Source: Agrobacterium vaccinii
Lineage (GTDB): Bacteria; Pseudomonadota; Alphaproteobacteria; Rhizobiales; Rhizobiaceae
Reading direction: 5' to 3'
DNA: 64,000 nt
Assembly: GCF_021310995.1 (NCBI RefSeq)
Contig: NZ_CP054151.1
Coordinates: forward strand, 124,001-188,000
Made by a program: the position numbers and the translations under genes. Below, in pieces: positions 15,668 to 34,779 of this stretch. Under the pieces are notes generated by a model, which worked only from the letters and a program-made list of their open reading frames with translations, was not told where the DNA came from and did not search any database. Each line of letters starts with the position of its first letter. The stretch's first letter is position 1.

Positions 15668-15675
15668 GGCCCACC

Positions 15676-16443: not shown

Positions 16444-16480
16444 CACGGGCAGAAACTAAGTACCGGGAGGAGATAGAACC

Positions 16481-18000: not shown

Positions 18001-18575
18001 AAAGCTGGCTCCTGCCCAGTTCTTGAGGCGGAAATGCTCCAAGTATAAGCGTGGGTAGCTACGCCCTGCCTCTCCCGGGGCGTTCCATATCGCGCGACCG
18101 AATTCTGGTTCTACATGCCACAAATGGGCCTGCGCAATTGCCGCTTTGGACAACACGTTCACGAATATCATTTGATATCGGTGCGGTCATCAGATGCTGG
18201 CCTCCATCCAGCCAACATCAGTGAATCACATCAGAACTGATTTGGGAGCCAAACCCGATTTAGAAAAACGTGGAAACGCTCTAGGTTCTGGTCGAAATGG
18301 ACGGCGAATGCCACGTTTTCTAAGGCGAGATTGGACAAATACATGCAGAAGCCGGCTCGTATCGCGACGCATTTCCATGTGGCGTAAAATGTTCTTACGA
18401 AATAGACAGCGTGCTGGGCGCTAACCCTGGGGAACAGGATATTTCGGCTCTGGTGTATAGTGGTTGCCGTCTGCATGTGCTTCGATCCGGAATCTTCCAT
18501 CGAATGCGCGAGGAGTATCTTTTGCTGGCCATTTCGTGGCTGAACCGCCATACGACCTTTGAAAATGAAACAACG
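18001..18575. other. 575-base gap without a recognisable gene; possible decayed coding remnant
   Basis: No RNA gene, transposon end or convincing promoter was recognised. From about 18334 to 18620 a plus-strand frame stays open and reads protein-like (for example the segment EEYLLLAISWLNRHTTFENE). It has no plausible start and is preceded by stops, which would suit a gene remnant, but I do not recognise it. It runs antisense into the 3' end of the next gene. AllA and the NACHT-FGE gene converge here. Confidence 0.35.
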
Positions 18576-20600
18576 CTACCGCGAAACCACGATCCGAAAT
18601 CCATTGCCGCGCCAGAAGCCATCCGGTTCGAGGCTTCCCCGGTATGTGCAGCAGGCTTTCAGTTTACCGCTTGAAAAGCAGCCTCCGCGCAGAACGCGCC
18701 GGATTGACGGTGCCGCATCCGCAGCTTCACGCTCATCGTTCGAATAGGGATATTCGAAGTCGGGCGTTGCCATATCGTCGCCCCACAGCGTGGTGCACCA
18801 CTCCCAGACCTGACCGACCATATCGTAGCAGCCATAGGGTGAACGCCCTTTCGGAAACAGGCCAACCGTGCAGGTGGTATTGAAGCCGGCCTCTTCCGAA
18901 TTCGCCGCATCGTCCATCCAAGCATGTCCCCAAGGATAGCTGAGGACATCCGGCCCTATATCCGGCTGGTCGCCGCGCGCGGCACGCTCCCATTCCGGTT
19001 CCGTCGGCAATCGCACGAATTCGTCTGCCGAAATACGCCCTTGCACACGCCAGCGATGCGTCAACCAGTCACAATAGGCTCGTGCATCGTGCCATGTCAG
19101 GTCGGTCGCAGGAGCACTGCGTCGGTCATCCGAAAACCCGTCCGGGCTGCGCCACAGCCGGTTCGTGTCGCGCACGAAGGCACCATAGGCACTGTTGGTC
19201 ACCGGATAAAGGCCGATACGAAAGGCGTCGACGGTAACTGGATGAGGCGGTGCTGAATTGGGATGGCTGTGAGAGCCGAAGGTGAATTCCCCACCTGTAA
19301 CATCTGCCAATGCATCGAGTTCGCGCGGGTCACCCCATAGCGAGAGCCTGCGGCCCGCCGTCTCACGTTCCGGCGCTGAGAGCGCTCCGTGGCTGACGAT
19401 TTTTTGCAAATGCGCCGCAATGCGGTCACGCAGAGGTCCTGTGGCCGTCACCATATCCGCCGCCAGCAACGCGCCCCGCAGAACCGCATCACCCTCGCCT
19501 TCTATCAGCGCTTCAACCAGGGCGCTGGCCTCATTCTTGCCGGAAAGACGCGCAGCAAGGCTTGTCATGACCGGTGCCCAAAGGCCTGGCTTCTTGCGAA
19601 AATGTTCAACGGCCAAATCAGCGGGCTTGGATGCCAGATGCACCGCCGCCAGCAATTGCCGCACGCGGGTGATGGGCATGATGGTCGGGTCATCCACCTC
19701 GGCTGTCAGCGCATCGAGCGCCAGACCACAAAAGAGGTCGCTGGTCTGAGCATCACCGGAAATCTTTGCAAGCCAGCTGTCGGTGATGGTCTCGGCGCTC
19801 TCACCCACATCGCCGCCATGCATGGCCATGACGAACTGCGCGGGATTGGCCGCGGCAGTGCCAAGAGCAATCCCTGTCGCGCCGAGATCGAGGCCCGCCA
19901 GTCGCAAAGCCGTGTCCCGACGTTGGCTTTTCAGAAGCGGCAGCAGATCATAGCGCACATAGCCCGCGGGAAGCGCCCAGCTCTTGACGACAGAGACCTC
20001 GCCGAGTGCAAGCAGCTTCACAGCCGGATGGCGGCTCTGGAACGCCAGCGCTTCGGCAAGCAGCTGACACCCTGCGTCACCGGCCGCCTCTATGCCATCG
20101 AGGATCAGCAAAAGCCCAAGGTCCGCATGGAGCGCAACATCCGTGGAAGATGCGAGCAGTTCCTCGAAAGTTTTTGACGGGTCTACAGTCAGATAGAGCG
20201 GCACAACACCGCCCAGGGTCCATTGCTCATCATGCACTGCACCGAGATCGTTGCGCGGAATGGCGCGGGGCGCAAAGTCACCTTGCACGAGTGAGAACGC
20301 CAGATGCTTCGCAAACGTGGTCTTGCCGCTTCCAGTCTCCCCTGTCAGCAGGAGTGCTGGATAATCGCGCACCATTTCCAGCGCCGAGAAATAGACGGCG
20401 GGTTCGGGTTCTGCCTGATCGGTCAGCTTGCGCAGGCCCTTGGCCGCCTTGTCCTCAAATGTAAAGTTGACGAGCAGCGGAATATAACCCGTCGCCAGAT
20501 CGACAATCGAGGCATCCGGCAGTGCAAAAAGCTGAGCGGCACCAAACTCGCGTGCTTGCGAAATCAGGCTGTCCGCCGCGTCTATGTCCTCATTGTTCAT
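18576..20600 (-). CDS. NACHT-like P-loop ATPase fused to a formylglycine-generating-enzyme-like domain
   Basis: A 674-residue soluble protein with two parts. At the N-terminus is a STAND/NACHT-like ATPase with Walker A GETGSGKTT (87-95), a VVPLYLTVD strand near 132-140 and Walker B LLLILDGIEA (163-172). A helical middle part follows. From about residue 430 there is an FGE-sulfatase (SUMF1/EgtB/PvdO) domain, with GGEFTFGSHS, the diagnostic PTEPEWERAARG, GQVWEWC and RGGCF segments. The canonical copper-binding C-x4-C of true formylglycine generators is not in place, so oxidase activity is doubtful. The start overlaps the VOC gene stop, making it the last gene of the peptide-type transporter operon. 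The biological role is unknown. Confidence 0.85.
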   Translation of the reverse strand: MNNEDIDAADSLISQAREFGAAQLFALPDASIVDLATGYIPLLVNFTFEDKAAKGLRKLTDQAEPEPAVYFSALEMVRDYPALLLTGETGSGKTTFAKHLAFSLVQGDFAPRAIPRNDLGAVHDEQWTLGGVVPLYLTVDPSKTFEELLASSTDVALHADLGLLLILDGIEAAGDAGCQLLAEALAFQSRHPAVKLLALGEVSVVKSWALPAGYVRYDLLPLLKSQRRDTALRLAGLDLGATGIALGTAAANPAQFVMAMHGGDVGESAETITDSWLAKISGDAQTSDLFCGLALDALTAEVDDPTIMPITRVRQLLAAVHLASKPADLAVEHFRKKPGLWAPVMTSLAARLSGKNEASALVEALIEGEGDAVLRGALLAADMVTATGPLRDRIAAHLQKIVSHGALSAPERETAGRRLSLWGDPRELDALADVTGGEFTFGSHSHPNSAPPHPVTVDAFRIGLYPVTNSAYGAFVRDTNRLWRSPDGFSDDRRSAPATDLTWHDARAYCDWLTHRWRVQGRISADEFVRLPTEPEWERAARGDQPDIGPDVLSYPWGHAWMDDAANSEEAGFNTTCTVGLFPKGRSPYGCYDMVGQVWEWCTTLWGDDMATPDFEYPYSNDEREAADAAPSIRRVLRGGCFSSGKLKACCTYRGSLEPDGFWRGNGFRIVVSR

Positions 20601-20980
20601 GGAAAGAGCTTTGCCACATCTGGGTTATGAAATCTCTGGATTTCGATGGCATAACCTGCGGGATCTTCAAAGAAAAAATGCTCGCAGAAGGTTCCACGCA
20701 GCATCTCCGACTGACCGGCAACGCCTGCTTCCCTCAACCGCTTGTGCCAACCCTCCACATCTTGAGAGACGATGGTCAGCAGCACGGCGCTCTTTTCCTG
20801 ATGTTTCAGATGACCGCGATTGCCATCAACAATGCCGAAATAGCAGTTTTCAGCGATGCGGTAGATGCGTGCCATTGTCTGATCGAGCACCAGTTCGAAG
20901 CCCAGAACCTCTTCATAAAACGGCAGGACAGCATGGATATCGTCGTAATAGAAGAAGGTGATCGAATAGTCTTTTTTCAT
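20597..20980 (-). CDS. VOC (glyoxalase/bleomycin-resistance) family protein
   Basis: A 127-residue single-module vicinal-oxygen-chelate protein. It begins with the ITFFYYDDIHAVLPFYEEVLGF pattern, and its last strand contains FFEDPAGYAIEIQRF with the usual metal-ligand Glu. AGGA lies about eight bases before the ATG at 20980; the longer open frame upstream overlaps the binding-protein gene and is ignored. Its stop overlaps the NACHT-FGE start, so the two are probably translated together. The family covers lyases, dioxygenases and ligand-binding proteins, so the function is open. Confidence 0.8.
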   Translation of the reverse strand: MKKDYSITFFYYDDIHAVLPFYEEVLGFELVLDQTMARIYRIAENCYFGIVDGNRGHLKHQEKSAVLLTIVSQDVEGWHKRLREAGVAGQSEMLRGTFCEHFFFEDPAGYAIEIQRFHNPDVAKLFP

Positions 20981-20997
20981 TCTGTGCGTCCTCGTGT

Positions 20998-22383
20998 TCA
21001 GGCGATCGTCAGCGTGCCCTTGTGATCGATCGAAAGGCCGGCGATGTCCTTGCGCGCCGCGAAAACATCGACGGGATGCGCCAGATAAAGCCAGGGCGGA
21101 TTCGCGTTGAGATAGGTTAAGCAAGCGGCATAGGCGCGTTCACGGGTATCCTGCTCCACTGCCGCATTGGCCGCCGCGATCAGCCGTTCGGCTTCAGGAT
21201 CGTCGTAACCTTGCCACCACACGGCTTTCGTGACGCTCGATATCTTGTCATTGAGAATGCGGTAGGTGCTGTGCGGCGAGGAATCGAATATCGCCAGATC
21301 GCCCATCTTCTTAGCGCCAATCTGGCGGGCATATTCCGGCCGGTCGTTTTCGACCTCGATTTCTACCTCAAACCCAACAGCTTCAAGTGCGTTGGCCACG
21401 AACCGGCTGATTTCCGGCGCACGCTCCGGCATGAAAGTGGGCGTGCGAAGCTTTATCTTGCGGTCTCCATCTACCTCGGTCAGCAAGGCACGCGCCCGGT
21501 CGCGATCATAGGCGATGGGTGAAAGCCCAGCCGTTTTCATGCCGAGATGAAAGGGACTGACGATGCTGGAAGACGGCACGGCAAGATCGCCAAATATTTC
21601 GTGGCATATGGCCGCCGTATCCACCGCGTGATTGGCCGCTAACCGTGCCTCGGGAAACCGGAAAATGCCCTCGCTGCAATTGAGGTAATACATGACCGAC
21701 AACGTGTTGACAGCCCTGCCCCATTGAAAGGCATCATCGAACTCCAGCTTGCCCTCGACCCGCTCCAGATTGAGCGCGGCATCGACCTTGTCGGATTTCA
21801 ATAGTGCGTAGCGTTGGTCGGCGGACGGTTCGCAAAGCGCGATGATGCGCTGCGGTTCTGCATTACCGGAGACACGCTCCAGTTCAGTTCGGACCTTGGT
21901 TTCGAAATTCAGAACGCGGAATGGCCCTGTACCCAGAACCGGCGTGCCGTCAGGTGCGAAGCGGCAGATGTAAAACTCTGAGAAGATATCGAGAATATCG
22001 GCGATGGGATGGGGGTTGCGCACCACAATCGCTCCGTCACCATCCGCCACGATCTCGGCATCGGCAAGATAGCGGGCATAGGACCATTTCATGCCGAACG
22101 TATCGACGGCCTCCAGAATGCCATCGATGAAGTCGGTGATATCGGAAGCGACACAAGGCTTACCGTCATGGAACACAGCGCCTTCGCGAATGACGAAGCG
22201 CCATTCGCGTCCATCTGGTCTGTGCGTCCAATGCGAGAACAGGGCGGGCAAGACCTGGCCGTCATTCCATTTCAGCAGCGGTTCGAACACAAGATTTTTC
22301 AGCGTCAGAATACTGGTGTCATCCGTCACCCGTGCCGGTGGCAGGAAATCGACTTTTTCGAGGGCTATAGTCAGAGTGGACAT
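20998..22383 (-). CDS. Peptide/nickel-type ABC solute-binding protein lacking a signal peptide
   Basis: A 461-residue family 5 (DppA/NikA-like) solute-binding protein. Family features include the VFEPLLKWNDG region, GREWRFVIREGAVFHDGKP and VLGTGPFRV. The N-terminus reads MSTLTIALEKVDFLPPARV, with no hydrophobic signal core. The ATG at 22383 has TGAGG five bases before it, and no upstream in-frame extension supplies a signal (the extra 17 codons are not hydrophobic). It would therefore stay in the cytoplasm unless exported unusually. It lies in the transporter operon that already has a secreted binding protein. Confidence 0.85.
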   Translation of the reverse strand: MSTLTIALEKVDFLPPARVTDDTSILTLKNLVFEPLLKWNDGQVLPALFSHWTHRPDGREWRFVIREGAVFHDGKPCVASDITDFIDGILEAVDTFGMKWSYARYLADAEIVADGDGAIVVRNPHPIADILDIFSEFYICRFAPDGTPVLGTGPFRVLNFETKVRTELERVSGNAEPQRIIALCEPSADQRYALLKSDKVDAALNLERVEGKLEFDDAFQWGRAVNTLSVMYYLNCSEGIFRFPEARLAANHAVDTAAICHEIFGDLAVPSSSIVSPFHLGMKTAGLSPIAYDRDRARALLTEVDGDRKIKLRTPTFMPERAPEISRFVANALEAVGFEVEIEVENDRPEYARQIGAKKMGDLAIFDSSPHSTYRILNDKISSVTKAVWWQGYDDPEAERLIAAANAAVEQDTRERAYAACLTYLNANPPWLYLAHPVDVFAARKDIAGLSIDHKGTLTIA

Positions 22384-22390
22384 GGTTGCC

Positions 22391-23230
22391 TCAGTCGAGT
22401 TCGTTGCGACGGCGCGGATTGAACCAATCGGCAAGGGAATCGCCGATCAGGTTGAAGGAGAGCACCGCAAGCAGGATCGCCATGCCGGGGGCGAGCGCCA
22501 CCCAGGCGGCACTGCGCACGAATTGCAGGTTGGCGGACACATCCGCACCCCACTCCGCCATGGGCGGCTGCGCACCAAGTCCCAGAAAACCGAGGCTTGC
22601 GGTTTGCAGAATGGCACTGCCAAGCGCCAACGTCGATTGCACCAGCAGCGGCCCAAGACCGTTGACGAAGACATAGCGGAAGAGAATGCGCGGCGTCGGT
22701 AGCCCAAGCGAAACCGCCGCCTCGACATAGGGCTTGACGGAAATGCTAAGCGCTTGGCTGCGGGCGACGCGGGCAAATTGCGGGGCAAGCGTGATGGCAA
22801 CGGCCAGCATCGCATTTTCAAGGCTCGGGCCGAAGGCAGCAGCAAGCGCAATGGCCAGCACAAGGGCCGGAAACGCCAGAATGGCATCCACGATGCGCAT
22901 GACGACACTATCAAACCAGCCACCGAGAAAACCCGCCAGCATGCCGATGGTCACGCCAACCACAAAAGCGATGGCCACAACGCCCACGCCAATGGCCAAT
23001 GTGGCGCGACCGCCATACATGATGCGCGTGAAGATATCGCGCCCAAAGGCATCCGTGCCAAGCCAATGTTCGAAACTCGGCGCGGCCAGCTTGTGAAGCA
23101 CATCCAGCTTGGTTGGCGAATAGGGCGAGATCATCGGCCCGAACACGATCACGCAGACCAGCGATAGCAGGATGATACTGCCCGCCAGAGCCAGCGTGTT
23201 TTTGCGCAGGAAGTTGAAAAACTCTGACAT
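22391..23230 (-). CDS. Dipeptide/nickel-type ABC permease (DppC family)
   Basis: A 279-residue inner-membrane permease. The N-terminal cytoplasmic stretch and first helix (LAGSIILLSLVCVIVFG) are followed by the DppC hallmark HWLGTDAFGRDIFTRIMYGGR. The EAA-type loop and LGLGAQPPMAEWG near the C-terminus complete the family pattern. The start is the ATG at 23230; the longer open frame upstream is the wrong-frame shadow of the DppB gene. Five bases separate it from DppB and seven from the next gene. It works with 23236-24246 and the fused ATPase at 27180-28982. Confidence 0.92.
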   Translation of the reverse strand: MSEFFNFLRKNTLALAGSIILLSLVCVIVFGPMISPYSPTKLDVLHKLAAPSFEHWLGTDAFGRDIFTRIMYGGRATLAIGVGVVAIAFVVGVTIGMLAGFLGGWFDSVVMRIVDAILAFPALVLAIALAAAFGPSLENAMLAVAITLAPQFARVARSQALSISVKPYVEAAVSLGLPTPRILFRYVFVNGLGPLLVQSTLALGSAILQTASLGFLGLGAQPPMAEWGADVSANLQFVRSAAWVALAPGMAILLAVLSFNLIGDSLADWFNPRRRNELD

Positions 23231-23235
23231 CCGGC

Positions 23236-24246: not shown

Positions 24247-24338
24247 TCTCTGCCCACTCACATCATCGAAAAATGATCTGCACCGGTTTCCCGTTTCAGA
24301 TCGGATCATCGGGCGCGCAGGGTGCGCGCCCGGAAAGG

Positions 24339-25904
24339 CTACTTCTTGGACACGCCCCAATATTCATTGAGTGGCGGTGCACTGTTGACGACGAGGCCTT
24401 CGACATTGGCGCGCTGGAAGACGATCAGCTTGGGGCTGAAGAGATAAACGCCGGGAACGCGCTTGACGATTTCTTCCTGCACCTGATGATACAATGCCGT
24501 GCGTGCCGGGACATCTACAGTCTGCTGCGCTTTCAGGATCAGATCATCCAGCGCCTTGTCTTCCGGCATACGGAACGTCATAGCCGAGTTGGCGAGCGAC
24601 GATAAGTATCCGATAGTGATGTGCGCATCCGGATCGTTGTACCAGGGCTGGCGACCATCAAGTGCTGCATCGAACTGGCCTGCGGTCTGAAGGGCGCGGT
24701 ACGCCGGGAACTCGGTCTGCTCGATGGTGGCGTTGATGCCGATATCGGCCAGATTGGCCTGCACATAGGTGGCAACGGCTGCCCAGAGCGGGCCCTGGAA
24801 ACTGTAAAGCTTCAGCTGGATTGTGGAGGCATCGACACCTGCTTCCCCGAGCAGCTTCTTCGAAGCTTCAGGATCATAATTCGGCGCCAGATCCTTGATC
24901 TTTGGATCGAACGCCCAGCTGTTGGTGGTCAATGGACCATAGACGCGTTCGGCAGTGCCACCGAACACGCCTTCCAGCAGGCCATCATAATCAATGGCAT
25001 GGGCGACGGCCTGACGTACGCGGATATCCGCGAACGGACCGTCTTTCTTGCTGTTGTTGAATTCAAGCTGGCGGATGATCTGGCTGGGTGCCTCAAGAAT
25101 CTTCACATCGCCATTGGACTTGAGTGCTGCAATGTCTTCAGCCGCAATGGCGGAAAGCTGGCCCTGCTGCTGCACCACATCGACGCCGCCGCTTTCAAGC
25201 TCCAGACGACGAGTCGAGGCCTCCGGGATGACGCGGTAGATGATGCGCGAAAGCTTCGGCGCACCACGGAAATAATCCGGATTGGCTTCCAACACCACAT
25301 TGGTATCGGCCTGTGCGCTCTTGAAGGCAAAGGGGCCGGTGCCGACCGGGTTGGCAGCAAATTTGTCGCCAAACTTCTCGACGGCAGCAGGGCTGACGAT
25401 GGCCGACTGCGGCTGCGCCAGAATGGAGAGGAAGGCCGGATAAGGCTCTGTGAGGCTGATCTTCACTTCTGTGGGTGAAACGACCGCGATGTCCTTGATG
25501 AGGCCGAAAGTCGCCTTGACGTAGGAATTTGTGGCCTTGGTACGCTCCAGCGAGAACTTAACCGCAGCAGCATCAAAAGGCGTGCCATCCTGAAACTTGA
25601 CGCCTTCGCGGATTTTGAAGTCGAACTCTTTACCGTCGGCAGACACAGTCCAGCTGGACGCCAGTCGGCCTTCCAACGCCTTGAAGTCCGGCGCAGTCCA
25701 GGCAACCAGCGTATCGAAAACATTGAGAATGATCTCGCTGCCGATCGGTTCGGCCTTGTTGGTGCCGGGCTCTAAGCTGACGGGATCGGATGGGACGGCG
25801 ATGACGAGTGTTTTCAACTGGTCATCACTCTGCGCGTTGACCGCGCCTGCAAACAGCGGAACAGCCACAAAGGCTACGGCGGCTAGTCCTTTAAAGAGTT
25901 TCAT
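24339..25904 (-). CDS. Peptide/nickel-type ABC periplasmic binding protein
   Basis: A 521-residue family 5 binding protein. The first 26 or so residues form a Sec signal ending near AGAVNAQS. TLVIAVPSDPVSLEPG, DGKEFDFKIREGVKFQDGTPFDA and NPVGTGPFAFKS are typical family landmarks. Two ATGs lie six bases apart; the second (25904) has AAAGGG at better spacing. It heads an operon running through two permeases to the NACHT-FGE gene. A palindrome shared with two other control regions of this block lies about 90 bases upstream (25991-26010). Confidence 0.92.
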   Translation of the reverse strand: MKLFKGLAAVAFVAVPLFAGAVNAQSDDQLKTLVIAVPSDPVSLEPGTNKAEPIGSEIILNVFDTLVAWTAPDFKALEGRLASSWTVSADGKEFDFKIREGVKFQDGTPFDAAAVKFSLERTKATNSYVKATFGLIKDIAVVSPTEVKISLTEPYPAFLSILAQPQSAIVSPAAVEKFGDKFAANPVGTGPFAFKSAQADTNVVLEANPDYFRGAPKLSRIIYRVIPEASTRRLELESGGVDVVQQQGQLSAIAAEDIAALKSNGDVKILEAPSQIIRQLEFNNSKKDGPFADIRVRQAVAHAIDYDGLLEGVFGGTAERVYGPLTTNSWAFDPKIKDLAPNYDPEASKKLLGEAGVDASTIQLKLYSFQGPLWAAVATYVQANLADIGINATIEQTEFPAYRALQTAGQFDAALDGRQPWYNDPDAHITIGYLSSLANSAMTFRMPEDKALDDLILKAQQTVDVPARTALYHQVQEEIVKRVPGVYLFSPKLIVFQRANVEGLVVNSAPPLNEYWGVSKK

Positions 25905-25990
25905 GGGCATGACCCTTTCGCGGTCTGATCGAGGCATTGTGCAGCCTCTGCTGGCTTCATGCTGTCAGTATAATCGCGGCTCGCGCCTCT

Positions 25991-26010
25991 GATATTCCAC
26001 GAAATATATC
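25991..26010. promoter_or_regulatory. Candidate operator, copy 3 of the GATAT/ATATC palindrome
   Basis: The sequence GATATTCCACGAAATATATC has outer half-sites GATAT and ATATC ten bases apart and a central CG. It matches the copy at 29855-29872 at 15 of 18 aligned positions. It lies 87 bases upstream of the secreted binding-protein start, suitable for control of the transporter/NACHT-FGE operon by the GntR regulator at 29024-29716. Binding is inferred. Confidence 0.6.
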
Positions 26011-26144: not shown

Positions 26145-27002
26145 TCAACCAGGATAGGCACCGGTGACGACAGGACGCGTTGGATCGCTGACCCAGGCAG
26201 ACCACGACCCGGGATACATAGCCGCTTTGATGCCGATGGAGGCAAGCGCCAGCACCGTGTGTGCAGCCGACATTCCCGCCCCGCAATAGACACCGACCGG
26301 TTTCTTGCCATCGGCACCCAGCGCCCGATACATTTCGCGCAACGTCTCTCCGTCGGTGAAATTTCCGTAGTCCGTAACATTGTCAGGCGCTGGTGCACTC
26401 AAGGCATGGGGAATATGCCCGCGTGGTGGCTGGCCAGGCGCGACTTTCCCGCCAATGTAATTGGGCCGAATACGCGCATCGAGAAGAACACCATCGGTCG
26501 CCAGCTTCAGTGCATCGTCGGCACCAAGCTCAGCCATATGTCCCGGCAACAGAACGATGTCGCTCGGCACCGGTGTCGTGCTTTCATCCGTCACCGGCAT
26601 ATCCGCCGCAATCCACGCTGGAAAACCACCATCCAGTACCCGCACATCCGGCAGGCCTGCCCAGCGCAAGACCCACCACGCGCGCGCAGCCGTCATGCTG
26701 CGGTCAGCATCGTAAATGACGATGGTACTGTCAGGTCGCAGACCCCAGCTGCGTGCCTTGGCCTGAAGTTCTGCAATGTCAGGCAGGGGTCTCTGCCCCC
26801 CTTCGACGCTCGCAGGAGACTGAAAATCGGTATAGGCTTGCGTATCTATCGCGCCTGTGATCCGCTGCACCTTGAACGAGTTCTGGCCCGTATAGGGATT
26901 AATGGAGTGCACGGCGATGACCGTGACATCCGCACCAGAGGACAACATTTCTTGCAACTGTGCTGGCGTCAAAAGAACCGAAATGCGCGTCGTGTCAGAC
27001 AT
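26145..27002 (-). CDS. Thiosulfate/3-mercaptopyruvate-type sulfurtransferase (two rhodanese domains)
   Basis: A 285-residue protein with two rhodanese modules. The N-terminal inactive one carries TIVIYDADRSMTAARAWWVLRWAG and VRVLDGGFPAW. The C-terminal one contains LLDARIRPNYIGG, GHIPHA and the active-site loop VYCGAGMSAAHT with the persulfide-forming Cys. The loop sequence CGAGMS is nearer to the mercaptopyruvate type (CGSGVT) than to classical rhodanese (CRxGxT). GGAGAT precedes the ATG at 27002. It is divergent from the fused transporter ATPase, and a shared palindrome lies between them. Confidence 0.88.
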   Translation of the reverse strand: MSDTTRISVLLTPAQLQEMLSSGADVTVIAVHSINPYTGQNSFKVQRITGAIDTQAYTDFQSPASVEGGQRPLPDIAELQAKARSWGLRPDSTIVIYDADRSMTAARAWWVLRWAGLPDVRVLDGGFPAWIAADMPVTDESTTPVPSDIVLLPGHMAELGADDALKLATDGVLLDARIRPNYIGGKVAPGQPPRGHIPHALSAPAPDNVTDYGNFTDGETLREMYRALGADGKKPVGVYCGAGMSAAHTVLALASIGIKAAMYPGSWSAWVSDPTRPVVTGAYPG

Positions 27003-27088
27003 GGTGATCTCCGAATATCAGGGCTGAAAGGAGCTACCTCTCTTATCATGGTAAAATCATCCAACGCGAAAAGGATGACAAGCAATAA

Positions 27089-27106
27089 ATATCTCACGTA
27101 ATATTC
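27089..27106. promoter_or_regulatory. Candidate operator, copy 2 of the GATAT/ATATC palindrome
   Basis: ATATCTCACGTAATATTC shares the core ACGTAATAT and the left ATAT half-site with the copies at 25991-26010 and 29855-29872 (13 of 18 positions match the latter). It lies between the divergent sulfurtransferase and fused-ATPase genes, where one regulator could control both. Confidence 0.5.
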
Positions 27107-27179
27107 TACTAGATATTTTTATTGACATTCGATCATCTGCGCGCTGCAATGCGGCTCTCATGAGCCGGAGTATCGAGAT

Positions 27180-28982
27180 TTGACAGTCCTTTCGGTCGAA
27201 AATCTGACAACTGCATTTCGCCGCAACGGCATCTGGAACTCCGTGGTCAATGATGTGAGTTTCAGCATCGATGCCGGTGAGACAGTGGCAATTGTCGGCG
27301 AATCCGGTTCTGGCAAAAGCGTCACGGCCATGTCGATCATGCGACTGTTGCCGGAGCGAACATCGCGCGTGGCAGGCACCGTCAGGCTTGGCGAAACCGA
27401 CCTGCTGTCGCTTCCCGAGCGGCAAATGCAGGACATTCGCGGCAATGATATCGCGATGATTTTCCAGGAGCCGATGACATCGCTCAACCCCGTCCTATCG
27501 GTGGGCCGTCAGATTGCCGAATCGATCATCCGGCATCGTGGTATCTCCAAGACCGAGGCGCGGGCGGAGACGGTGAGGCTTCTCGAGCGTGTGCGCATAC
27601 CCGCCGCATCCAGCCGTTTTGACGAATATCCGCACCAGCTTTCTGGCGGCATGCTTCAGCGCATCATGATTGCCATGGCACTGGCCTGTCGCCCGAAACT
27701 GCTGATCGCCGACGAGCCGACGACGGCTCTCGACGTCACCGTTCAGGCGGAAATCCTGCAACTGATCAAATCCTTGCAGGATGAGGAGAACATGGCTGTC
27801 CTCTTCATCACCCATGACATGGGTGTTGTGGCCGAAATTGCAGACCGGACCGTGGTCATGTTCCGCTCCCGCGCGCTCGAAACCGGCAAGACGGAACAGA
27901 TTTTTGCCCAACCTGCCAATGTCTATACCAAGGCGCTGCTCTCTGCCGTGCCAAGGCTGGGGTCGATGGTAGGTCACGATTATCCGGCCACATTTCCGCT
28001 GACCGATACGGATACCGGTGTTTCCTCAGTCGAGCGCGAGATTGCGGGAACGATACCCGCAAACAAACCACCGATCCTGGAAGTCGGCAATCTGATCACC
28101 AGGTTCGATATCAAATCCGGTGTCTTCGGGCGTGTCAGCGGCCGCGTTCATGCTGTCGAGAATATCTCGTTTGATCTACATGAGGGTGAAACGCTGGCGC
28201 TCGTCGGCGAGTCCGGCTGTGGCAAGTCCACCACCGGGCGGTCTGTGCTGCGACTGATTGAGCCGGTCAGCGGCTCCATCCGCATCAATGGACAGGAGGT
28301 CCGTTCCCTCACGCCAGCCGCGCTTTCGAAGCAACGCCAGCATATGCAGATGATCTTTCAAGACCCCTTCTCCAGTCTCAACCCGCGCATGCGCGTGGGT
28401 GAGGCCATCATGGAGCCGCTGGTGTCGCATGGTTTGGCATCGACCAAGGACGCGCGAGACAGGGCCACGGACCTGCTGGTCCGCGTGGGCTTGCAGGCGG
28501 ATATGGCAAAGCGCTTTCCACATGAATTCTCAGGCGGTCAGCGCCAACGCATCAGCATCGCGCGCGCTCTGACGCTCAATCCCGGCCTCATCGTTGCCGA
28601 TGAAGCTGTGTCTGCGCTTGATGTTTCGATCAAAGCTCAGGTTGTGAACCTGATGATGGAACTGCAGGAGCAGCTGAAAATCGCCTACCTCTTCATTAGC
28701 CACGACATGGCCGTGGTAGAGCGCGTCAGCCATCGGGTCGCAGTCATGTATCTGGGTGAGATCGTCGAGATCGGCACCCGCGCCCAGATATTCGGCAATC
28801 CACAGCATGCCTATACAAAGCGGTTACTCAGTGCCGTTCCGATTGCCGATCCCGCCAGACGCCATTTGCGGAAAGTGGCGGAAGGCGGAGAGATTGGCAG
28901 TGCGGTGCGTCCGGTAGATTATGTACCGGTGGTGGCACGCTATGCAGAGCCAGCACCCGGCCATCTCGTGAAGGTCGCCTGA
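27180..28982 (+). CDS. Fused dual ABC ATPase of a dipeptide/nickel-type importer (DppD-DppF fusion)
   Basis: A 600-residue cytoplasmic protein with two complete ATPase domains in tandem. Domain one has Walker A GESGSGKSV (40-48), QEPMTSLNPV, LSGGMLQR and LLIADEPTTALDV. Domain two has GESGCGKST at roughly residue 345, QDPFSSLNPRMRVG, FSGGQRQR and LIVADEAVSALDV. Its start is an unusual TTG at 27180 supported by GGAG nine bases before; no ATG fits. It energises the two permeases encoded on the other strand at 22391-24246, so the transporter is split into two divergently transcribed parts. Confidence 0.92.
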   Translation: MTVLSVENLTTAFRRNGIWNSVVNDVSFSIDAGETVAIVGESGSGKSVTAMSIMRLLPERTSRVAGTVRLGETDLLSLPERQMQDIRGNDIAMIFQEPMTSLNPVLSVGRQIAESIIRHRGISKTEARAETVRLLERVRIPAASSRFDEYPHQLSGGMLQRIMIAMALACRPKLLIADEPTTALDVTVQAEILQLIKSLQDEENMAVLFITHDMGVVAEIADRTVVMFRSRALETGKTEQIFAQPANVYTKALLSAVPRLGSMVGHDYPATFPLTDTDTGVSSVEREIAGTIPANKPPILEVGNLITRFDIKSGVFGRVSGRVHAVENISFDLHEGETLALVGESGCGKSTTGRSVLRLIEPVSGSIRINGQEVRSLTPAALSKQRQHMQMIFQDPFSSLNPRMRVGEAIMEPLVSHGLASTKDARDRATDLLVRVGLQADMAKRFPHEFSGGQRQRISIARALTLNPGLIVADEAVSALDVSIKAQVVNLMMELQEQLKIAYLFISHDMAVVERVSHRVAVMYLGEIVEIGTRAQIFGNPQHAYTKRLLSAVPIADPARRHLRKVAEGGEIGSAVRPVDYVPVVARYAEPAPGHLVKVA

Positions 28983-29023: not shown

Positions 29024-29716
29024 TTAGAGCGTCAACCCGCCCTGCCCAGTTGCGATCAGTGCGCCGAGGATGCCGCTCCGGGTATTCTCGTTGTGCTCCA
29101 CAATAACCTGCCGCGCGAGATCGGAATCACGCTTGCGCAGAGCCGCCACGATACGATGATGATCGACATTGGTTTCCGGATTGATGTCACGAACGCGCGC
29201 GCCCATGTAGAAAAGCCGCGCACATTCCTCAAGATGGCTCATCACCAGCGCATAGAGGCGAGGATTGCGGGAACCACGGGCAATGGCGGAATGAAATTCC
29301 TGATTGGAATCCACGAAGGTTTTCGTGCTGATCTCCTCACCGATCACGTAGCTCACATCGGCCAGCTGATCGAGCGCGTCGAGGTCTTCATTGGAAAGGT
29401 TCTTGGCCGCAAGCGCCGCCGCAGTCCCTTCCAGCATGCCGCGAATGGCAAAAAGGTCGTTCATATCCTTCACGGTGACAGGCGTGACGCGGTAGCCGCG
29501 GCGAGGATAGGCTTCCATGAAACCCTCGACGCAAAGCCGTGCAAGCGCCTCGCGCACCGGCGTCTTGCTGACGGAAAGCTGCTCGGCAAGCTCCGGCTCG
29601 GACACATCCATGCCCGGCGCCAGTTCTCCGGTGATGATGCGCTCCCGCAAGATGGCGTAAGCCTTCTCGGTCAGAGATTTGCTGCGCTTCTGCCCCGACA
29701 CATCCGCTTTGTTCAA
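29024..29716 (-). CDS. GntR-family (FCD-type) transcriptional regulator
   Basis: A 230-residue regulator. The winged helix spans about residues 10-75, with LRERIITGELAPGMDVSEPELAEQL and the SKTPVREALARL recognition helix. An FCD effector domain follows (FHSAIARGSRN, then NVDHHRIVAALRKRD, both His-containing as in metal-binding FCD domains). The likely start is TTG at 29716, seven bases after GGAG; another TTG six bases earlier is too close to that site. It sits in the middle of block D and is the obvious candidate to bind the three palindromes at 25991, 27089 and 29855. Confidence 0.87.
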   Translation of the reverse strand: MNKADVSGQKRSKSLTEKAYAILRERIITGELAPGMDVSEPELAEQLSVSKTPVREALARLCVEGFMEAYPRRGYRVTPVTVKDMNDLFAIRGMLEGTAAALAAKNLSNEDLDALDQLADVSYVIGEEISTKTFVDSNQEFHSAIARGSRNPRLYALVMSHLEECARLFYMGARVRDINPETNVDHHRIVAALRKRDSDLARQVIVEHNENTRSGILGALIATGQGGLTL

Positions 29717-29854
29717 AGCCAATCTCCAGTTTCGCGTCTACGCCATGCGTTTATGCTCGCAGGTTCAACATAGGTCAGTCATCCGGGCATTGCTATGCAC
29801 CGATTGCGCCTTGGCCTCATCACCAACAGAACTTTGACAAACAACGACGCTCTG

Positions 29855-29872
29855 ATATACTACGTAATATAT
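29855..29872. promoter_or_regulatory. Candidate operator, copy 1 of the GATAT/ATATC palindrome
   Basis: ATATACTACGTAATATAT is palindromic at every position except one central pair. It lies between the GntR gene and the divergent racemase/amidohydrolase operon, 46 bases upstream of the chosen racemase start, and could serve both promoters, giving autoregulation as well. Confidence 0.65.
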
Positions 29873-29917
29873 TTTGCGGATACAATCCTCGTATTCGTCC
29901 ACGCCGCAGGTATCGTC

Positions 29918-30580
29918 TTGTCAGAAATTCTGGTCATCAATCCCAACAGTTCCGTCTCTGTCACACGCTCCATGGAGGCCTGCCTTGGTCTCGTCCGCGA
30001 TGCCACCCGCCACAGCATCCGTTGTGCGGAACTTGCCAAATCCCCGCCCGGTATCGAGACGGACGCCCATGTGGGTGAGGTCATTCCCAACATAGTCGAA
30101 GCCGTGAACGAGGCCTCAGCCGATGCCTTCGTGCTTGCCTGCTTCTCGGATCCCGGCATTGCAACGGTCAGAAAAATGACGACGCAACCCGTCGTCGGCA
30201 TTGCCGAAGCGGCCTATCTGGCGGCCCTTGGCCTTGGTGAGCGCTTCGGCATCATCTCCCTCGGCCAATCCTCGATCAACCGGCACCTGCGCTATCTGAA
30301 ACATCTGGGCTTCGACGGTCGCCTTGCTGGAGACCGCTCCATCGACAAGACAGTGGTGGAGTTGATGGCGGGAGACGTCGTCGAAATCGTCTCACGCACG
30401 GCGAAAGTTCTGCGTGATGAGGACGGTGCCGATGTCATCATTCTCGGCTGTGCGGGCCTTGGCGGATACCGCCGCGCGCTCGAAGAGACACTCGGGCTTC
30501 CCGTCATCGATCCTGTTCAGGCCGGCGTGGCGCTGGCGTGTACAACACTGGACTTGCAATATGGAAGGCATGCATCATGA
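29918..30580 (+). CDS. Asp/Glu/hydantoin racemase family protein
   Basis: A 220-residue cofactor-independent racemase-family protein. It opens with SEILVINPNSS and carries the two catalytic cysteines expected of the family: C75 in FVLACFSDPG and C178 in IILGCAGLGG. The start is a TTG at 29918 with GCAGG about eight bases before; upstream codons in the frame look like non-coding promoter sequence. The next gene, a cyclic amidohydrolase, starts on its stop (ATGA). Racemase plus cyclic amidase is the standard pairing for hydantoin use. A second racemase lies at 53906-54574. Confidence 0.85.
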   Translation: MSEILVINPNSSVSVTRSMEACLGLVRDATRHSIRCAELAKSPPGIETDAHVGEVIPNIVEAVNEASADAFVLACFSDPGIATVRKMTTQPVVGIAEAAYLAALGLGERFGIISLGQSSINRHLRYLKHLGFDGRLAGDRSIDKTVVELMAGDVVEIVSRTAKVLRDEDGADVIILGCAGLGGYRRALEETLGLPVIDPVQAGVALACTTLDLQYGRHAS

Positions 30581-31944
30581 GCCATGATATCGTGATAACC
30601 GGCACCGTGGTACTGCCGGACGGCCCACTGGAAAACGGCTGGATTGCCATCAAGGACGGAAAGATTGCCGCCATCGGCAGCGGTGATCTTCCGGACGCAG
30701 GCGATCGGTTCGACGCAGGCCAAGACCTGATCATTCCCGGCGTCATAGATGGCCAGACCCATGCTTGCAGCTATGGCGGACTGCCCGGCATCGCGTCCAC
30801 CACCCGCTCGGCGGTGGCTGGCGGCATCACCACCATCGTGGATATGCCCTATGACAATCCCGATCCGCTGAATTCGGTCGCAAGACTGAATGCCAAGATC
30901 GACGCAATCAATAAGCATGCCCATTCCAACGTCGCACTTTACGCCACGGTGACGCCCGACCAGTCCACCGAAGAAATCGACGGTCTGATTGCCCGGGGCG
31001 TGGTGGCGTTCAAGATTTCGACCTTCGAAAGCAGCCCCACGCGCTTTCCGCGTATCTCCTCCAACCAGACACTGGAAATCTTTTCCGCCCTTGCCGATAC
31101 AAACATTCCTCTTGGCGTGCACAATGAAGATCAGGAAATCGTGCGCGCCCACATTGCAGCCGCCAAGGCCGCTGGACGTGATGGCATTGAGGCGCATTCC
31201 GAAAGCAGGCCACCGGCGGCGGAAATGGCCGCAACGGCGCAATTTCTGGAACTGGGTGCAGCCGCAGGCGCCCACGCGCATATCGTTCACCTCACGACGA
31301 CACGGGGCTTCGACATTGTCGAAAACTATTTGCTGGATGGTTTCCGCGCGACAGGTGAACTCTGCGTGCACTATCTCTGGCTGGACCCGGAAATCGACGG
31401 CCCCGAACTCGGCGCGAAAATGAAGGTCAACCCACCCATCCGCCCCGGCCAGATCGAGGCGCTGTGGGAGGATGTGGCGGACGGTCGTATCGCCTTCGTC
31501 AGCTCGGATCATTCCAGCTGGCCGGTCGACAACAAATTCACGCAGTCCATTTTCGACGCAGGCGCTGGAGTGCCGGGTCTCGAAACCCTTCTTCCGGCTT
31601 TCTACACCGGCGCGGAAATACGCGGTTACGATGCTGCGATGATGACGATCGAGCAACTCTGCGAACGGCCCGCCAAATTCTTCGGCCTCTGGCCCGAAAA
31701 GGGCACATTGCGTGTCGGTGCGGATGCCGACATCGCCATCCTGAAAACCGAACGGCAGATCTGGGACTCGTCAAAAGCCCATGATGAACTGTGCTGGAGC
31801 CCCTTCAATGGACGCGAATTTTCGGTTCGCGTGGTGCGCACCTATGTCGGCGGCAAGCTGGCGTGGGATGGTGCCGACATCGTCAATGCAGCCGGTGAAG
31901 GCCAGTACGTTTCTCGCGGCACATCCAGCTGGTTTGAAGCTTAA
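30577..31944 (+). CDS. Cyclic amidohydrolase (dihydroorotase/allantoinase/hydantoinase family)
   Basis: A 455-residue amidohydrolase-superfamily enzyme expected to open a cyclic amide ring. The putative carboxylated Lys lies in GVVAFKISTFES, later metal His residues lie in LGVHNEDQ and HIVHLTTT, and the catalytic Asp is in SSDHSSW. The first metal motif reads IDGQTHA instead of the usual H-x-H, so one expected His is Gln. This may alter metal content or substrate. GGAAGG precedes the ATG at 30577. The operon continues with a DapA-family protein and an SDR. Allantoinase is the nearest named group, but the substrate is open. Confidence 0.85.
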   Translation: MSHDIVITGTVVLPDGPLENGWIAIKDGKIAAIGSGDLPDAGDRFDAGQDLIIPGVIDGQTHACSYGGLPGIASTTRSAVAGGITTIVDMPYDNPDPLNSVARLNAKIDAINKHAHSNVALYATVTPDQSTEEIDGLIARGVVAFKISTFESSPTRFPRISSNQTLEIFSALADTNIPLGVHNEDQEIVRAHIAAAKAAGRDGIEAHSESRPPAAEMAATAQFLELGAAAGAHAHIVHLTTTRGFDIVENYLLDGFRATGELCVHYLWLDPEIDGPELGAKMKVNPPIRPGQIEALWEDVADGRIAFVSSDHSSWPVDNKFTQSIFDAGAGVPGLETLLPAFYTGAEIRGYDAAMMTIEQLCERPAKFFGLWPEKGTLRVGADADIAILKTERQIWDSSKAHDELCWSPFNGREFSVRVVRTYVGGKLAWDGADIVNAAGEGQYVSRGTSSWFEA

Positions 31945-31955: not shown

Positions 31956-32882
31956 ATGCCATTGATCAACAACCAGACGTCGGGCGTTTTCGTTATTGCC
32001 TGCACCCCCTTTACCGATGATGGCGCAATCGATGTGACAAGCATCGATTGCATGGTGGATTTCTATTACGACAAGGGCGCGGACGGTCTGACGATCCTTG
32101 GCATGATGGGCGAAGCCCCGAAGCTGACGCAGGCCGAGTCCATCGCCATCACCCGCCAGACGCTGGCACGCTCGGGCGACAAGCCCGTGGTCGTCGGTGT
32201 TTCCGCACCAGGTCTGGCTGCCATTGGCGAATTGACGAAAGCCGTGATGGACATGGGCGCGGCAGGCGTCATGGTCGCACCGCCATCCAGCCTGCGCACA
32301 GACGAACAAATCATCGGCTATTACCGCAACGTCGTTGAGACTATAGGCACCGACGTTCCGGTCGTCTTGCAGGATTTCCCACTCGTTACTGGCGTGCAGA
32401 TTTCCTCGAAAACGCTCGGCACCATCTTCGAAGAGCATCCCAGCATCGTCATGCTCAAGCATGAAGACTGGCCGGGCCTGCAAAAGATCACCGATCTGCG
32501 CAATGCCGAAGCCAAGGGTCGCCGCCGGACCTCGATCCTGTGCGGCAATGCTGGTGTGTTCTTGCCGGAAGAGATGCAGCGCGGAGCAGATGGCGCGATG
32601 ACCGGTTTTGCCTATCCCGAAATGATGGTGGAGGTCTGCCGCCTGAGCAATGAGGGGCGCTATGACGCTGCACAAGACTTGTTCGACGCCTATCTGCCGC
32701 TGATGCGTTACGAACAACAACCGGGCTTGGGCCTCGCCATCCGCAAATATGTACTGGCCAAGCGTGGTGCAATTGCCAGTGCTGCCCAGCGCCGTCCGGG
32801 CGCATCTCTCAACGCGCAGGCCATCGCTGAAGTCGAACGGCTGATCGAGCGCCAGAAACACAAACTTGAGGCATTGAAATAA
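31956..32882 (+). CDS. DapA/NAL-superfamily (dihydrodipicolinate synthase-like) protein
   Basis: A 308-residue TIM-barrel protein. GMMGEAPKLT matches the GxxGE region, and the Schiff-base Lys is in SIVMLKHEDWPGL (about residue 168). The usual Tyr of the Y-N-x-P motif is absent: the corresponding stretch is VVLQDFPLVTG. It is therefore unlikely to be lysine-pathway DapA and may be an aldolase or dehydratase for a keto acid. AAAGGAGAATGAG precedes the ATG. It is embedded in the racemase-amidohydrolase operon and its stop overlaps the SDR start by one base. Confidence 0.85.
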   Translation: MPLINNQTSGVFVIACTPFTDDGAIDVTSIDCMVDFYYDKGADGLTILGMMGEAPKLTQAESIAITRQTLARSGDKPVVVGVSAPGLAAIGELTKAVMDMGAAGVMVAPPSSLRTDEQIIGYYRNVVETIGTDVPVVLQDFPLVTGVQISSKTLGTIFEEHPSIVMLKHEDWPGLQKITDLRNAEAKGRRRTSILCGNAGVFLPEEMQRGADGAMTGFAYPEMMVEVCRLSNEGRYDAAQDLFDAYLPLMRYEQQPGLGLAIRKYVLAKRGAIASAAQRRPGASLNAQAIAEVERLIERQKHKLEALK

Positions 32883-33640
32883 TGGATTTTCTGATTTCCG
32901 GCAAAACCGCCCTCGTTCTGGGCGCAAGCCGTGGCTTGGGTGCCGCCATCGCCAAAGGGCTTGCCGCTGAAGGCGTCAAAGTCTTCGCCGCCGCCCGCAA
33001 CGTGGGCACAATAGAAAAGACCGACAACATCACGCCACTGACGGTCGATCTCTCCGACGCGACATCCGTCGCTACGATGATCGCAACCGTCACGGCAGCG
33101 GGTGGCGTCGATATTCTCGTCAACAATTCCGGTGGCCCCAAAGCCGGACCGGCCGCCGGCCAGTCGAAAGAAAGCTGGGCCAGCGCCTTCGACAGCATGG
33201 CAACCTCCATCTTTACAGTGACCGACGCCATGCTGGAAGGAATGATTGCGCGCAAATGGGGTCGCATCATCACCATTGGCTCCTCCGGTGTCGTGCAGCC
33301 CATTCCCAATCTGGCCCTTTCCAACGGCATCCGCGCTGCGGTGTCCGGTTGGTCGAAAACACTGGCTGGCGAGGTTGCCCGCCACGGCATCACCGTCAAC
33401 ATGATCCTGCCCGGCCGGATCGATACCGACCGCGTGCGTGAACTCGATGCAGGCAAGGCAGAGAAAACATCAAAGACGGTTGAAGCCGTGCAAGACGCCT
33501 CTCGCGCCGAAATCCCGGCGGGCCGTTACGGCAAGCCGGAAGAATTTGCAGCAGTCGCGGTCTTCCTTGCCAGCGCGCAGGCAAGCTATGTAACGGGTTC
33601 GGCCATCCGGGTGGACGGTGGCATGATCAAGGGGTTCTGA
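32882..33640 (+). CDS. Divergent SDR-family oxidoreductase lacking the Tyr-x3-Lys pair
   Basis: A 252-residue short-chain dehydrogenase fold with the cofactor motif LGASRGLGAAIA, VNNSGGPKAG in place of NNAG, and ITIGSSGV with the active-site Ser. Where Tyr-x3-Lys is expected the protein reads NLALSNGIRAAVSGW, so both catalytic residues are replaced. A recognised-looking SN-x2-R subgroup of SDRs has this feature. It ends with VTGSAIRVDGGMIKGF, normal for the family. TAATG overlap with the DapA-like gene indicates tight coupling. Confidence 0.85.
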   Translation: MDFLISGKTALVLGASRGLGAAIAKGLAAEGVKVFAAARNVGTIEKTDNITPLTVDLSDATSVATMIATVTAAGGVDILVNNSGGPKAGPAAGQSKESWASAFDSMATSIFTVTDAMLEGMIARKWGRIITIGSSGVVQPIPNLALSNGIRAAVSGWSKTLAGEVARHGITVNMILPGRIDTDRVRELDAGKAEKTSKTVEAVQDASRAEIPAGRYGKPEEFAAVAVFLASAQASYVTGSAIRVDGGMIKGF

Positions 33641-33645: not shown

Positions 33646-34779
33646 ATGGTTGATTTCGACAAGGTTGTTGAGCGTCGCGGGACCGGAAGCTCCAAATGGA
33701 GCAAATACGGACCGGATATCCTACCCATGTGGGTGGCTGACATGGATTTTCCATCTGCCCCTGAAATTGTCGATGCCATCAAATCCCGCCTGGAACATCC
33801 TTGTCTTGGTTACGGCGTAGCGCGTGACGAGTTGCGCGCCTGCATCGTAGCGGATCTGCAAACCAAATATGACTGGACGATCACGCCTGAAGAAATTGTC
33901 TTCCTGCCGGGCGTCGAGCCCGGATTCAATATGGCGTTAAAAGCCATGCTTTCACCGGGCGATGGTGTGCTGGTGCAAACACCGGTGTATCGCCCGATCC
34001 TCAATGCCCCCGGCCATTGGGACATGAAGCGAATTGATGCGCCGCTGGTCGCCACTAACGGTGGCTACAAAATCGATCTGGACGATTTTTCCGCCAAGCT
34101 TAAGCAGTCCAAAGCCTTGTTGTTTTGCAATCCGCAGAACCCCACAGGAAAAGCCTTCACGCGTGGCGAAGTCGAAGCAATTGCCGGGCTTTGCGAAAGC
34201 AATGACACGCTGATCATCTCCGACGAAATTCATTGCGATCTGCTGTTGGACGGCAGAAAGCATGTCCCGATTGCCTCGCTTTCGTCCGATGCAGCAAGCC
34301 GGACGATCACGCTGATGTCAGCGGCAAAAACCTATAATATCGCTGGTTTGAAGACTGCCTTTGCCATTGTTCAAGACAGAAATATGCGCGAAAAGTACGT
34401 GCAGTATCGCTTGGGCATGGTCGACAGCGTCAACATACTCGGCCTCGAGGCCACCTTGGCGGCCTATAGTCATGCTGATGTTTGGAAAACGAAGATGTTG
34501 GCCTATATCGAGTCCAACCGCGATTTCCTCTCGCAAGAGATCGCCAAACGCTTCCCACAGATAAGGATGATAAAACCTGAAGCGACTTTTTTGGCCTGGC
34601 TCGACTGCTCTGCCCTCAACCTTCCGACCGATCCACAAAGCTTTTACCTGAAACACGGCAAAGTCGGCTTCAGTGCTGGCTCAGAATTCGGAGCGAACGT
34701 TTCCAACCACCTACGAGTCAATTTCGGCTGCCCCCGCGCGCTGCTTGAAGAGGCTATTAACAGAATGGCGCGGAGTTAG
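33646..34779 (+). CDS. MalY/PatB-type aminotransferase-fold C-S lyase
   Basis: A 377-residue pyridoxal-phosphate enzyme. The N-terminal RRGTGSSKWSKYGPDILPMWVADMDF is the PatB/MalY signature. FCNPQNPTGKAF and ISDEIHCDLL belong to fold type I, and the PLP Lys is in MSAAKTYNIAGLKTA. The final ANHLRVNFGCPR-like stretch provides the carboxylate-binding Arg. Characterised members cleave cystathionine or other cysteine S-conjugates to pyruvate, ammonia and a thiol. It closes the plus-strand operon, five bases after the SDR. With the sulfurtransferase nearby it points to sulfur-compound catabolism. Confidence 0.88.
   Translation: MVDFDKVVERRGTGSSKWSKYGPDILPMWVADMDFPSAPEIVDAIKSRLEHPCLGYGVARDELRACIVADLQTKYDWTITPEEIVFLPGVEPGFNMALKAMLSPGDGVLVQTPVYRPILNAPGHWDMKRIDAPLVATNGGYKIDLDDFSAKLKQSKALLFCNPQNPTGKAFTRGEVEAIAGLCESNDTLIISDEIHCDLLLDGRKHVPIASLSSDAASRTITLMSAAKTYNIAGLKTAFAIVQDRNMREKYVQYRLGMVDSVNILGLEATLAAYSHADVWKTKMLAYIESNRDFLSQEIAKRFPQIRMIKPEATFLAWLDCSALNLPTDPQSFYLKHGKVGFSAGSEFGANVSNHLRVNFGCPRALLEEAINRMARS

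Follow-up and report, generated by a model that had tools for sequence, protein, structure and literature searches.

Gene content of the NACHT-FGE locus

The window analysed here is a 64,000-nucleotide stretch of Agrobacterium vaccinii DNA, part of a 1.56 Mb contig. It encodes a 674-residue protein, hereafter NACHT-FGE, in which a STAND/NACHT-like P-loop NTPase is joined to a C-terminal domain of the formylglycine-generating enzyme (FGE) fold. Its gene closes a seven-gene minus-strand operon that runs from a rhodanese gene through an exported substrate-binding protein (SBP), two permeases, a second SBP lacking a signal peptide (signal-less SBP) and a VOC protein to NACHT-FGE. The importer ATPase is encoded divergently on the plus strand, and the genes from racemase to PatB lie beyond a GntR regulator gene. 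The closest named relatives of the locus were found in Agrobacterium and Rhizobium. An original prediction, made from the sequence alone, had marked 18576-22383 as the NACHT-FGE, VOC and signal-less SBP genes at the end of an importer operon. Both the coordinates and this placement were correct, and the start of NACHT-FGE does overlap the VOC stop (as ATGA). The whole unit is larger (~18576-34779) and its neighbouring catabolic genes (racemase, hydantoinase-like, DHDPS-family, short-chain dehydrogenase (SDR), PatB and rhodanese) had not been used in that prediction. The features of the unit are:

18576..20600, minus strand: NACHT-FGE, 674 residues; NACHT-like P-loop NTPase, helical middle (~250-425) and C-terminal FGE-fold domain (~428-674), from Pfam, alignment and a structure model
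20597..20980, minus strand: VOC-fold protein, 127 residues (Pfam Glyoxalase, 42 bits, cut-off 20.6)
20998..22383, minus strand: signal-less SBP_bac_5 binding protein, 461 residues, ATG at 22383 (Pfam, 122 bits; N terminus inspected, hydropathy)
22391..23230, minus strand: ABC permease 2, 279 residues
23236..24246, minus strand: ABC permease 1
24339..25937, minus strand: exported SBP_bac_5 with a signal-like segment at its N terminus (profile, hydropathy)
26145..27002, minus strand: rhodanese/3-mercaptopyruvate-sulfurtransferase-like protein, opening the operon (scores 95 bits against this model, cut-off 250)
27087..27120, no strand: near-palindrome in the divergent promoter region, putative operator (from its conservation)
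27180..28982, plus strand: fused double ABC ATPase, OppDF-type (nearest model GsiA, 803 bits, cut-off 1077)
29024..29722, minus strand: FCD-type GntR regulator (profile)
29795..30580, plus strand: Asp/Glu/hydantoin racemase family protein (profile)
30538..31944, plus strand: cyclic amidohydrolase, ErtD-like (closest to the model of ErtD, a hydantoin-5-propionate amidohydrolase, with 504 bits, cut-off 600)
31956..32882, plus strand: DHDPS-family enzyme (profile)
32882..33640, plus strand: SDR (profile)
33646..34779, plus strand: PatB-family pyridoxal-phosphate (PLP) C-S lyase (412 bits, cut-off 340), a marker of the type A loci described below

Taken together, the locus looks catabolic and not like a defence island, with its catabolic genes probably under GntR control. 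The near-palindrome, a probable operator, was kept in the window and in five related loci (L010-L014) and was degenerate in four others (L016, L054-L056).

Conservation and exchange of gene sets

An initial relative search returned seven full-length NACHT-FGE relatives (59-93% identity) and three FGE-only matches. Within the family, at least 8/247 genomes had a match at E 1e-20. These included the window genome and five others with the locus, one genome (G192) with an FGE-only match and no NTPase profile, and one (G009) with a remnant. Up to four candidates were scored per genome, and all such tallies are lower bounds. The G009 remnant (L026, 15352-15534) is a decayed NACHT-FGE C terminus with a 42-residue open frame of 80% identity, near a contig end.

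We assembled 21 loci carrying NACHT-FGE (type A) from genomes of the family, genomes of the order and plasmid records; one further type A match (H4), as well as the type B records behind matches H29-H31 (see below), are known from tables only. The rhodanese, exported SBP, both permeases, signal-less SBP, VOC and NACHT-FGE genes occurred in identical order in 21/21 loci, one of which (L057, with frame breaks) was compared by tblastn pieces and excluded from the protein alignments. The association was tested in both directions, since 13 loci (the window and 12 others) were found through NACHT-FGE and eight (L044-L047, L054-L057) through VOC or SBP. Likewise, the eight plasmid records with a close NACHT-FGE relative were the same eight that had close VOC and SBP relatives. 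Plasmid NZ_CP049249.1 of the soil bacterium Rhizobium rhizoryzae is one type A carrier of the locus. The gene set singled out in the original prediction is thus real and conserved, and no orthologue at a random position lacking the VOC and SBP genes was seen among the 21 loci.

The conserved order stands next to racemase, hydantoinase-like, DHDPS-family, SDR and PatB genes. PatB at ≥44% identity was present in 16/16 type A genomes or records and, by coordinates, near the locus in 14. In one locus (L047, 7371-10444) it immediately followed NACHT-FGE on the same strand, effectively forming an eighth operon gene. No close OppDF ATPase occurred in the fetched stretches of L015, L020 and L045; in L045 the record ends there. 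Across 18 loci (L011 and L012 excluded as near-duplicates), median pairwise identity was 0.70 for the FGE domain, 0.40 for residues 40-427, 0.66 for rhodanese, 0.79 for VOC and 0.62 for the signal-less SBP. Pairwise distances of FGE correlated with those of the six other operon proteins (r 0.85-0.95; 153 pairs, 18 loci); this is expected of co-inherited genes and is not independent evidence of interaction.

Some further matches were not counted as loci. FGE-only relatives without VOC or SBP, including those on Streptomyces, Azospirillum and Chlorohelix plasmids, were non-orthologues. Seven other genomes of the order gave VOC-like matches (E 5e-26 to 6e-21). Inspection of six (L048-L053; L048 just 3984 bases) revealed no signal-less SBP and no such operon, the surroundings of the seventh (G502) being outside the comparison. 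A Novosphingobium record (H16) had a 37% VOC match and was not among the SBP matches.

A second set of six loci (type B: Microvirga, Sulfitobacter, Labrenzia, Ensifer, G914 and G1233) was compared gene by gene, three of them being annotated. These retained relatives of VOC (36-41% identity to the window), signal-less SBP (26-31%), racemase (42-68%) and the DHDPS-family enzyme (60-64%), with the SDR present in 5/6. Their importer differed, the exported SBP and permeases sharing 29-36% identity and the ATPases 45-51%. NACHT-FGE and rhodanese were absent from the fetched stretches of all six, and PatB at ≥44% identity was found in none (one 34% paralogue in G1233). Instead, a type B-specific amidohydrolase lay right after the signal-less SBP in 6/6 loci; its nearest models were chlorohydrolase/deaminase-like, with scores far below cut-off, and we label it TRZ/ATZ type. 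At E 1e-60 this enzyme was found in 0/17 type A genomes or records, counting that of the window. The PatB and amidohydrolase searches covered the plasmid record only for four type B and two type A members.

NACHT-FGE therefore goes with a set confined to type A, consisting of rhodanese, the PatB C-S lyase and NACHT-FGE itself. That type A has this set in place of the type B amidohydrolase suggests a sulfur-bearing substrate for type A, with NACHT-FGE serving that step. Since SBP and VOC are retained without NACHT-FGE in type B, they are part of a broader system. The original suggestion that these two proteins supply NACHT-FGE with a ligand signal fits poorly with the six type B loci, and also with four further loci in which a signal-less SBP has no VOC or importer homologues in its vicinity. 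The two locus types offer a natural with/without comparison for an NTPase-FGE role outside immunity, related catabolic loci either having NACHT-FGE, rhodanese and PatB or lacking them and having another amidohydrolase instead.

The comparison also bears on a role as an assembly or maturation factor for another type A component (importer, rhodanese or PatB), with FGE binding the client. NACHT-FGE is the last gene of the importer operon, and FGE-fold proteins can be structural, PorK/GldK being among the sequence matches of the domain. However, type B loci have importers of this general family and no NACHT-FGE, and FGE was conserved about as strongly as rhodanese. We consider this role unlikely.

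Genes flanking the unit at 34849-37797 and 38133-42930 had no established relation to it. They encode SBP_bac_3 importer components, a DUF1989 protein, two M24-type peptidases, of which one came closest to ectoine hydrolase with a score below cut-off, and an ErtE-like carbamoylase (41674-42930) that scored far below cut-off. On the other side, a separate plus-strand cluster (14393-18000) contained an MR/MLE-family dehydratase and a ureidoglycolate-lyase-family gene, identified by profiles, and between them an SDR-like and an alcohol-dehydrogenase-like gene, recognised by eye.

Domains of NACHT-FGE and the cytosolic binding proteins

The architecture given in the original prediction was borne out. 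Walker A (GETGSGKT) lies at 87-94 and Walker B (LLLILDG) at 163-169, and Pfam FGE-sulfatase matched 432-671 with 145 bits (cut-off 23.3). The profile-based NTPase call is weak, because nSTAND3 scored exactly its cut-off (27.2) and both NACHT (23.1; cut-off 26.7) and AAA_16 (24.4; 32.6) fell below theirs. Among five orthologues scanned, that of Terrarubrum (L045) passed the NACHT cut-off with 30.9 and three (L046, L047, L023) were below it. Even so, Walker A Lys93 and Walker B Asp168 were invariant in 20/20 sequences, the first Gly of Walker A being replaced by Ala in some orthologues. The nonsynonymous divergence (dN) between the window and L013 was 0.17 for the rest of the NTPase and 0.16 for the helical part, and just 0.066 for the P-loop segment (residues 40-110); the ATP site is therefore also conserved. 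The gene as a whole was under purifying selection (ratio to synonymous divergence, dN/dS, 0.12-0.23). Foldseek with a low-confidence model ranked NLRC4, ToxD, NOD2, NLRP3 and FGE chains first and RFC, ORC, TnsC and Avs4 lower, all TM-scores being low because the whole-protein model is poor (FGE half pLDDT 58, pTM 0.42). The residues between NTPase and FGE were helical in the predicted model, and the part before FGE ranged from 326 to 460 residues among orthologues, some of them falling short by up to 96 residues. Profile scans and the alignment revealed neither an N-terminal effector or DNA-binding domain nor C-terminal sensor repeats, FGE standing at the C terminus instead. The NTPase is thus recognisable but divergent.

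These features bring in the main rival explanation, a STAND sensor, in which the C-type-lectin-like FGE domain would sense the imported ligand, alone or on SBP/VOC, and ATP-dependent oligomerisation would signal to a partner by importer gating or gene control. The NACHT-type fold, the ATP site kept in 20/20 sequences and the presence of two binding proteins in the same operon agree with this, and part of PMC10907252 describes a STAND-FGE protein of a putative conflict system with FGE as the proposed sensor. However, there is no effector or DNA-binding domain by profile scan, the variable length of the part before FGE fits poorly, a GntR regulator is already present and the supposed input proteins occur without NACHT-FGE in type B. 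A sensor role is a fair possibility, somewhat less likely than the catabolic role favoured below.

FGE was the most conserved large part of the protein (dN 0.096, window versus L013), with 88/247 positions invariant compared to 25/388 in residues 40-427 (20 sequences). The fold was also recovered by Foldseek on a domain-only model (pTM 0.69; C-terminal half below pLDDT 50), and ToxD (PDB 7spq) was the best solved match both by sequence profile and by Foldseek. The only invariant cysteines of the domain across the 20 sequences were Cys510, Cys591 and Cys641, and Cys641 occupies the Ser place of the RGGS motif in 20/20. In alignment with T. curvata FGE, the two places that we take to be its copper-binding cysteine pair were Ser and Ala. 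The DinB domain of EgtB carries iron-binding histidines, and a profile scan of the window protein gave no DinB match. SenA (67 bits, cut-off 420) and EgtB (63 bits, cut-off 360) were weak matches, and the OvoA model was also far below cut-off. Because the copper pair is missing and there is no DinB domain, NACHT-FGE is not a classical FGE, and it is not an EgtB-type synthase either. The fold and the weak model matches, together with the order EgtB then C-S lyase in ergothioneine synthesis and the PatB accompanying NACHT-FGE here, could be read in favour of a copper FGE forming formylglycine in a protein client or an iron sulfoxide synthase of EgtB/SenA type. With the needed residues or domain missing, both were rejected as highly improbable.

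A defence or conflict NTPase hitch-hiking in the operon was weighed in the same way. STAND-FGE and other FGE-bearing conflict systems are described in parts of PMC10907252 and PMC7159879. In addition, three of the five non-orthologous FGE proteins examined were KAP-FGE (two) or NACHT-FGE (one), the other two having no recognised NTPase; the NTPase-FGE architecture itself is therefore not new. Against this stand the fixed operon position in 21/21 loci, the absence of an effector and an FGE domain that is conserved and not diversified. The four matches from PADLOC were weak (best E 0.00024) and fell exclusively between residues 71 and 110, in the P-loop region. No repeats ≥40 bases occurred in window positions 16500-24500, reverse transcriptase not being searched for. 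A retroelement-diversified STAND-FGE target was rejected on the missing repeats and the conserved FGE end. The defence-like device raised in the original prediction is very improbable, and was rejected on the catabolic context and the weak PADLOC matches.

In line with the original prediction, the N terminus of the signal-less SBP is of mature type from the first residue on in those type A and type B loci that were inspected. By a simple hydropathy heuristic with a narrow gap between the groups, the highest 11-residue value near the N terminus was 1.08-1.84 in 11 signal-less SBPs compared to 1.93-2.68 in eight exported ones. Type A and type B proteins share the motifs FDSSPxS[TS]xR and WWxG. 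The signal-less SBP is apparently cytosolic. Judged by N-terminal sequences, several families of Alphaproteobacteria, among them Rhizobiaceae, Methylobacteriaceae, Stappiaceae and Roseobacteraceae, have a lineage of family-5 SBPs that seems to remain cytosolic. No report of such a lineage was found in the open-access literature by title and abstract. Four loci in unrelated contexts (L067, L068, L069 and L071, ~9500-11800 each) carried a same-family SBP_bac_5 that was apparently signal-less, the N terminus of the L069 protein being unsettled. No VOC, importer or pathway homologues were found near these SBPs, which possibly represent a wider family of cytosolic binding proteins.

We take the metal ligands of metal-dependent VOC enzymes to be His, His and Glu. 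In the VOC protein Glu113 was kept, position 7, presumably the place of the first His, was Ile in all 11 rows, and position 65, the place of the second, was Ala, Pro or Thr. With Glu kept and both His positions lost, the protein looks more ligand-binding than metal-dependent, its set of ligands being incomplete for an enzyme of glyoxalase I or FosB type.

A candidate catabolic role and known systems

We tentatively favour, at somewhat below an even chance, an NTPase-FGE protein recruited to catabolism for FGE catalysis on, or handover of, a sulfur-bearing intermediate. The substrate would probably be a small, sulfur-containing, hydantoin-like solute, its class being deduced from the gene content. 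The Opp-type importer would bring this solute in, the signal-less SBP and VOC would act in the cytosol by binding either it or an intermediate, and the racemase, amidohydrolase, DHDPS-family and SDR enzymes would degrade its core. Where type B has its other amidohydrolase, the rhodanese, PatB and NACHT-FGE set would act. FGE would be the working end that holds or oxidises the sulfur-bearing intermediate, PatB and rhodanese would then remove and carry off the sulfur, and the ATP-binding half would gate or assemble the FGE domain. The gene order, the A/B exchange, the conservation of FGE and ATP site, and the lack of a signal peptide and of known FGE metal sites are direct observations; the substrate class, the sulfur chemistry and ATP-driven assembly are what we infer. 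An immune-type architecture may thus have been put to metabolic use. In a bolder and rather unlikely form, a NACHT/STAND ATPase would have turned into a dedicated catabolic enzyme or substrate-handover machine, in which ATP binding assembles the protein and the FGE head, fed by the cytosolic SBP and VOC carrier, frees sulfur from an imported heterocycle without known copper or iron sites, replacing the type B amidohydrolase.

Several observations weigh against the catabolic role. A close relative of the ErtD-like amidohydrolase occurred only in Microvirga (64%) and Ensifer (60%), the other 4/6 type B loci having 27-31% matches only, and types A and B may therefore not share the whole pathway. 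PatB was far from the locus in 2/16 type A genomes or records, and it can, like rhodanese, have a role in general sulfur metabolism. The Alloyangia orthologue (L044) had no NTPase profile match at E 0.01, and in all three comparisons, each of nine genes, NACHT-FGE had the highest dN/dS. As no FGE catalytic site was recognisable, catalysis is a guess and binding without chemistry fits equally well; the poorly modelled C-terminal half of FGE precluded a pocket analysis. Precedent is also weak in one respect. The FGE-fold protein PvdO is genetically needed for a small-molecule oxidation, whilst purified PvdO was inactive with no detectable cofactor, according to part of PMC6206403.

In favour of the catabolic role, PvdO, EgtB and ToxD are FGE-fold precedents in small-molecule pathways. 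The succession of EgtB and the PLP C-S lyase EgtE in ergothioneine synthesis, described in part of PMC10805701, parallels NACHT-FGE and PatB as an analogy only. Like the EgtB/EgtE and OvoA/SenA sulfoxide and selenoxide synthase systems, the locus combines an FGE domain with a partner PLP C-S lyase; unlike them, it has no DinB domain, scores far below the family cut-offs and a different neighbourhood. ErtD of ergothioneine utilisation (NF058538) was the nearest model to the locus amidohydrolase, but at 504 bits this enzyme is below the cut-off of 600, on which ground a full ergothioneine-utilisation pathway was rejected. None of the window proteins scanned scored above the cut-off of any other Ert family. 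By title and abstract, the open-access literature yielded no paper describing ErtA-E and no description of the present gene set.

ToxD, from toxoflavin biosynthesis in Burkholderia glumae, is likewise an FGE-fold protein of a small-molecule pathway and shares 26-28% identity with the FGE domain in Foldseek alignments. However, its 328-residue chain is too short for an NTPase half and its locus is biosynthetic. STAND-FGE conflict systems share a STAND-kind P-loop NTPase and a C-terminal FGE/C-type-lectin-fold domain with NACHT-FGE. Parts of the respective papers describe nSTAND1 with EAD8 and a C-terminal FGE in putative conflict systems (PMC10907252), the FGS domain as a predicted effector (PMC7159879), diversification of some STAND/NTPase-FGE conflict proteins by retroelements (PMC10907252, PMC7159879) and FGE domains together with caspase-like domains (PMC3501461). 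In contrast, no effector-associated domain or template/variable repeat was seen here, FGE is conserved and the gene has a fixed place in a catabolic operon. Finally, periplasmic family-5 SBPs (NikA, DppA, GsiB) have the SBP_bac_5 domain in common with the signal-less SBP, whereas the latter has no signal peptide in the inspected N termini and carries its FDSSPxS[TS]xR motif, pointing to a family-5 binding-protein lineage seemingly retained in the cytosol.

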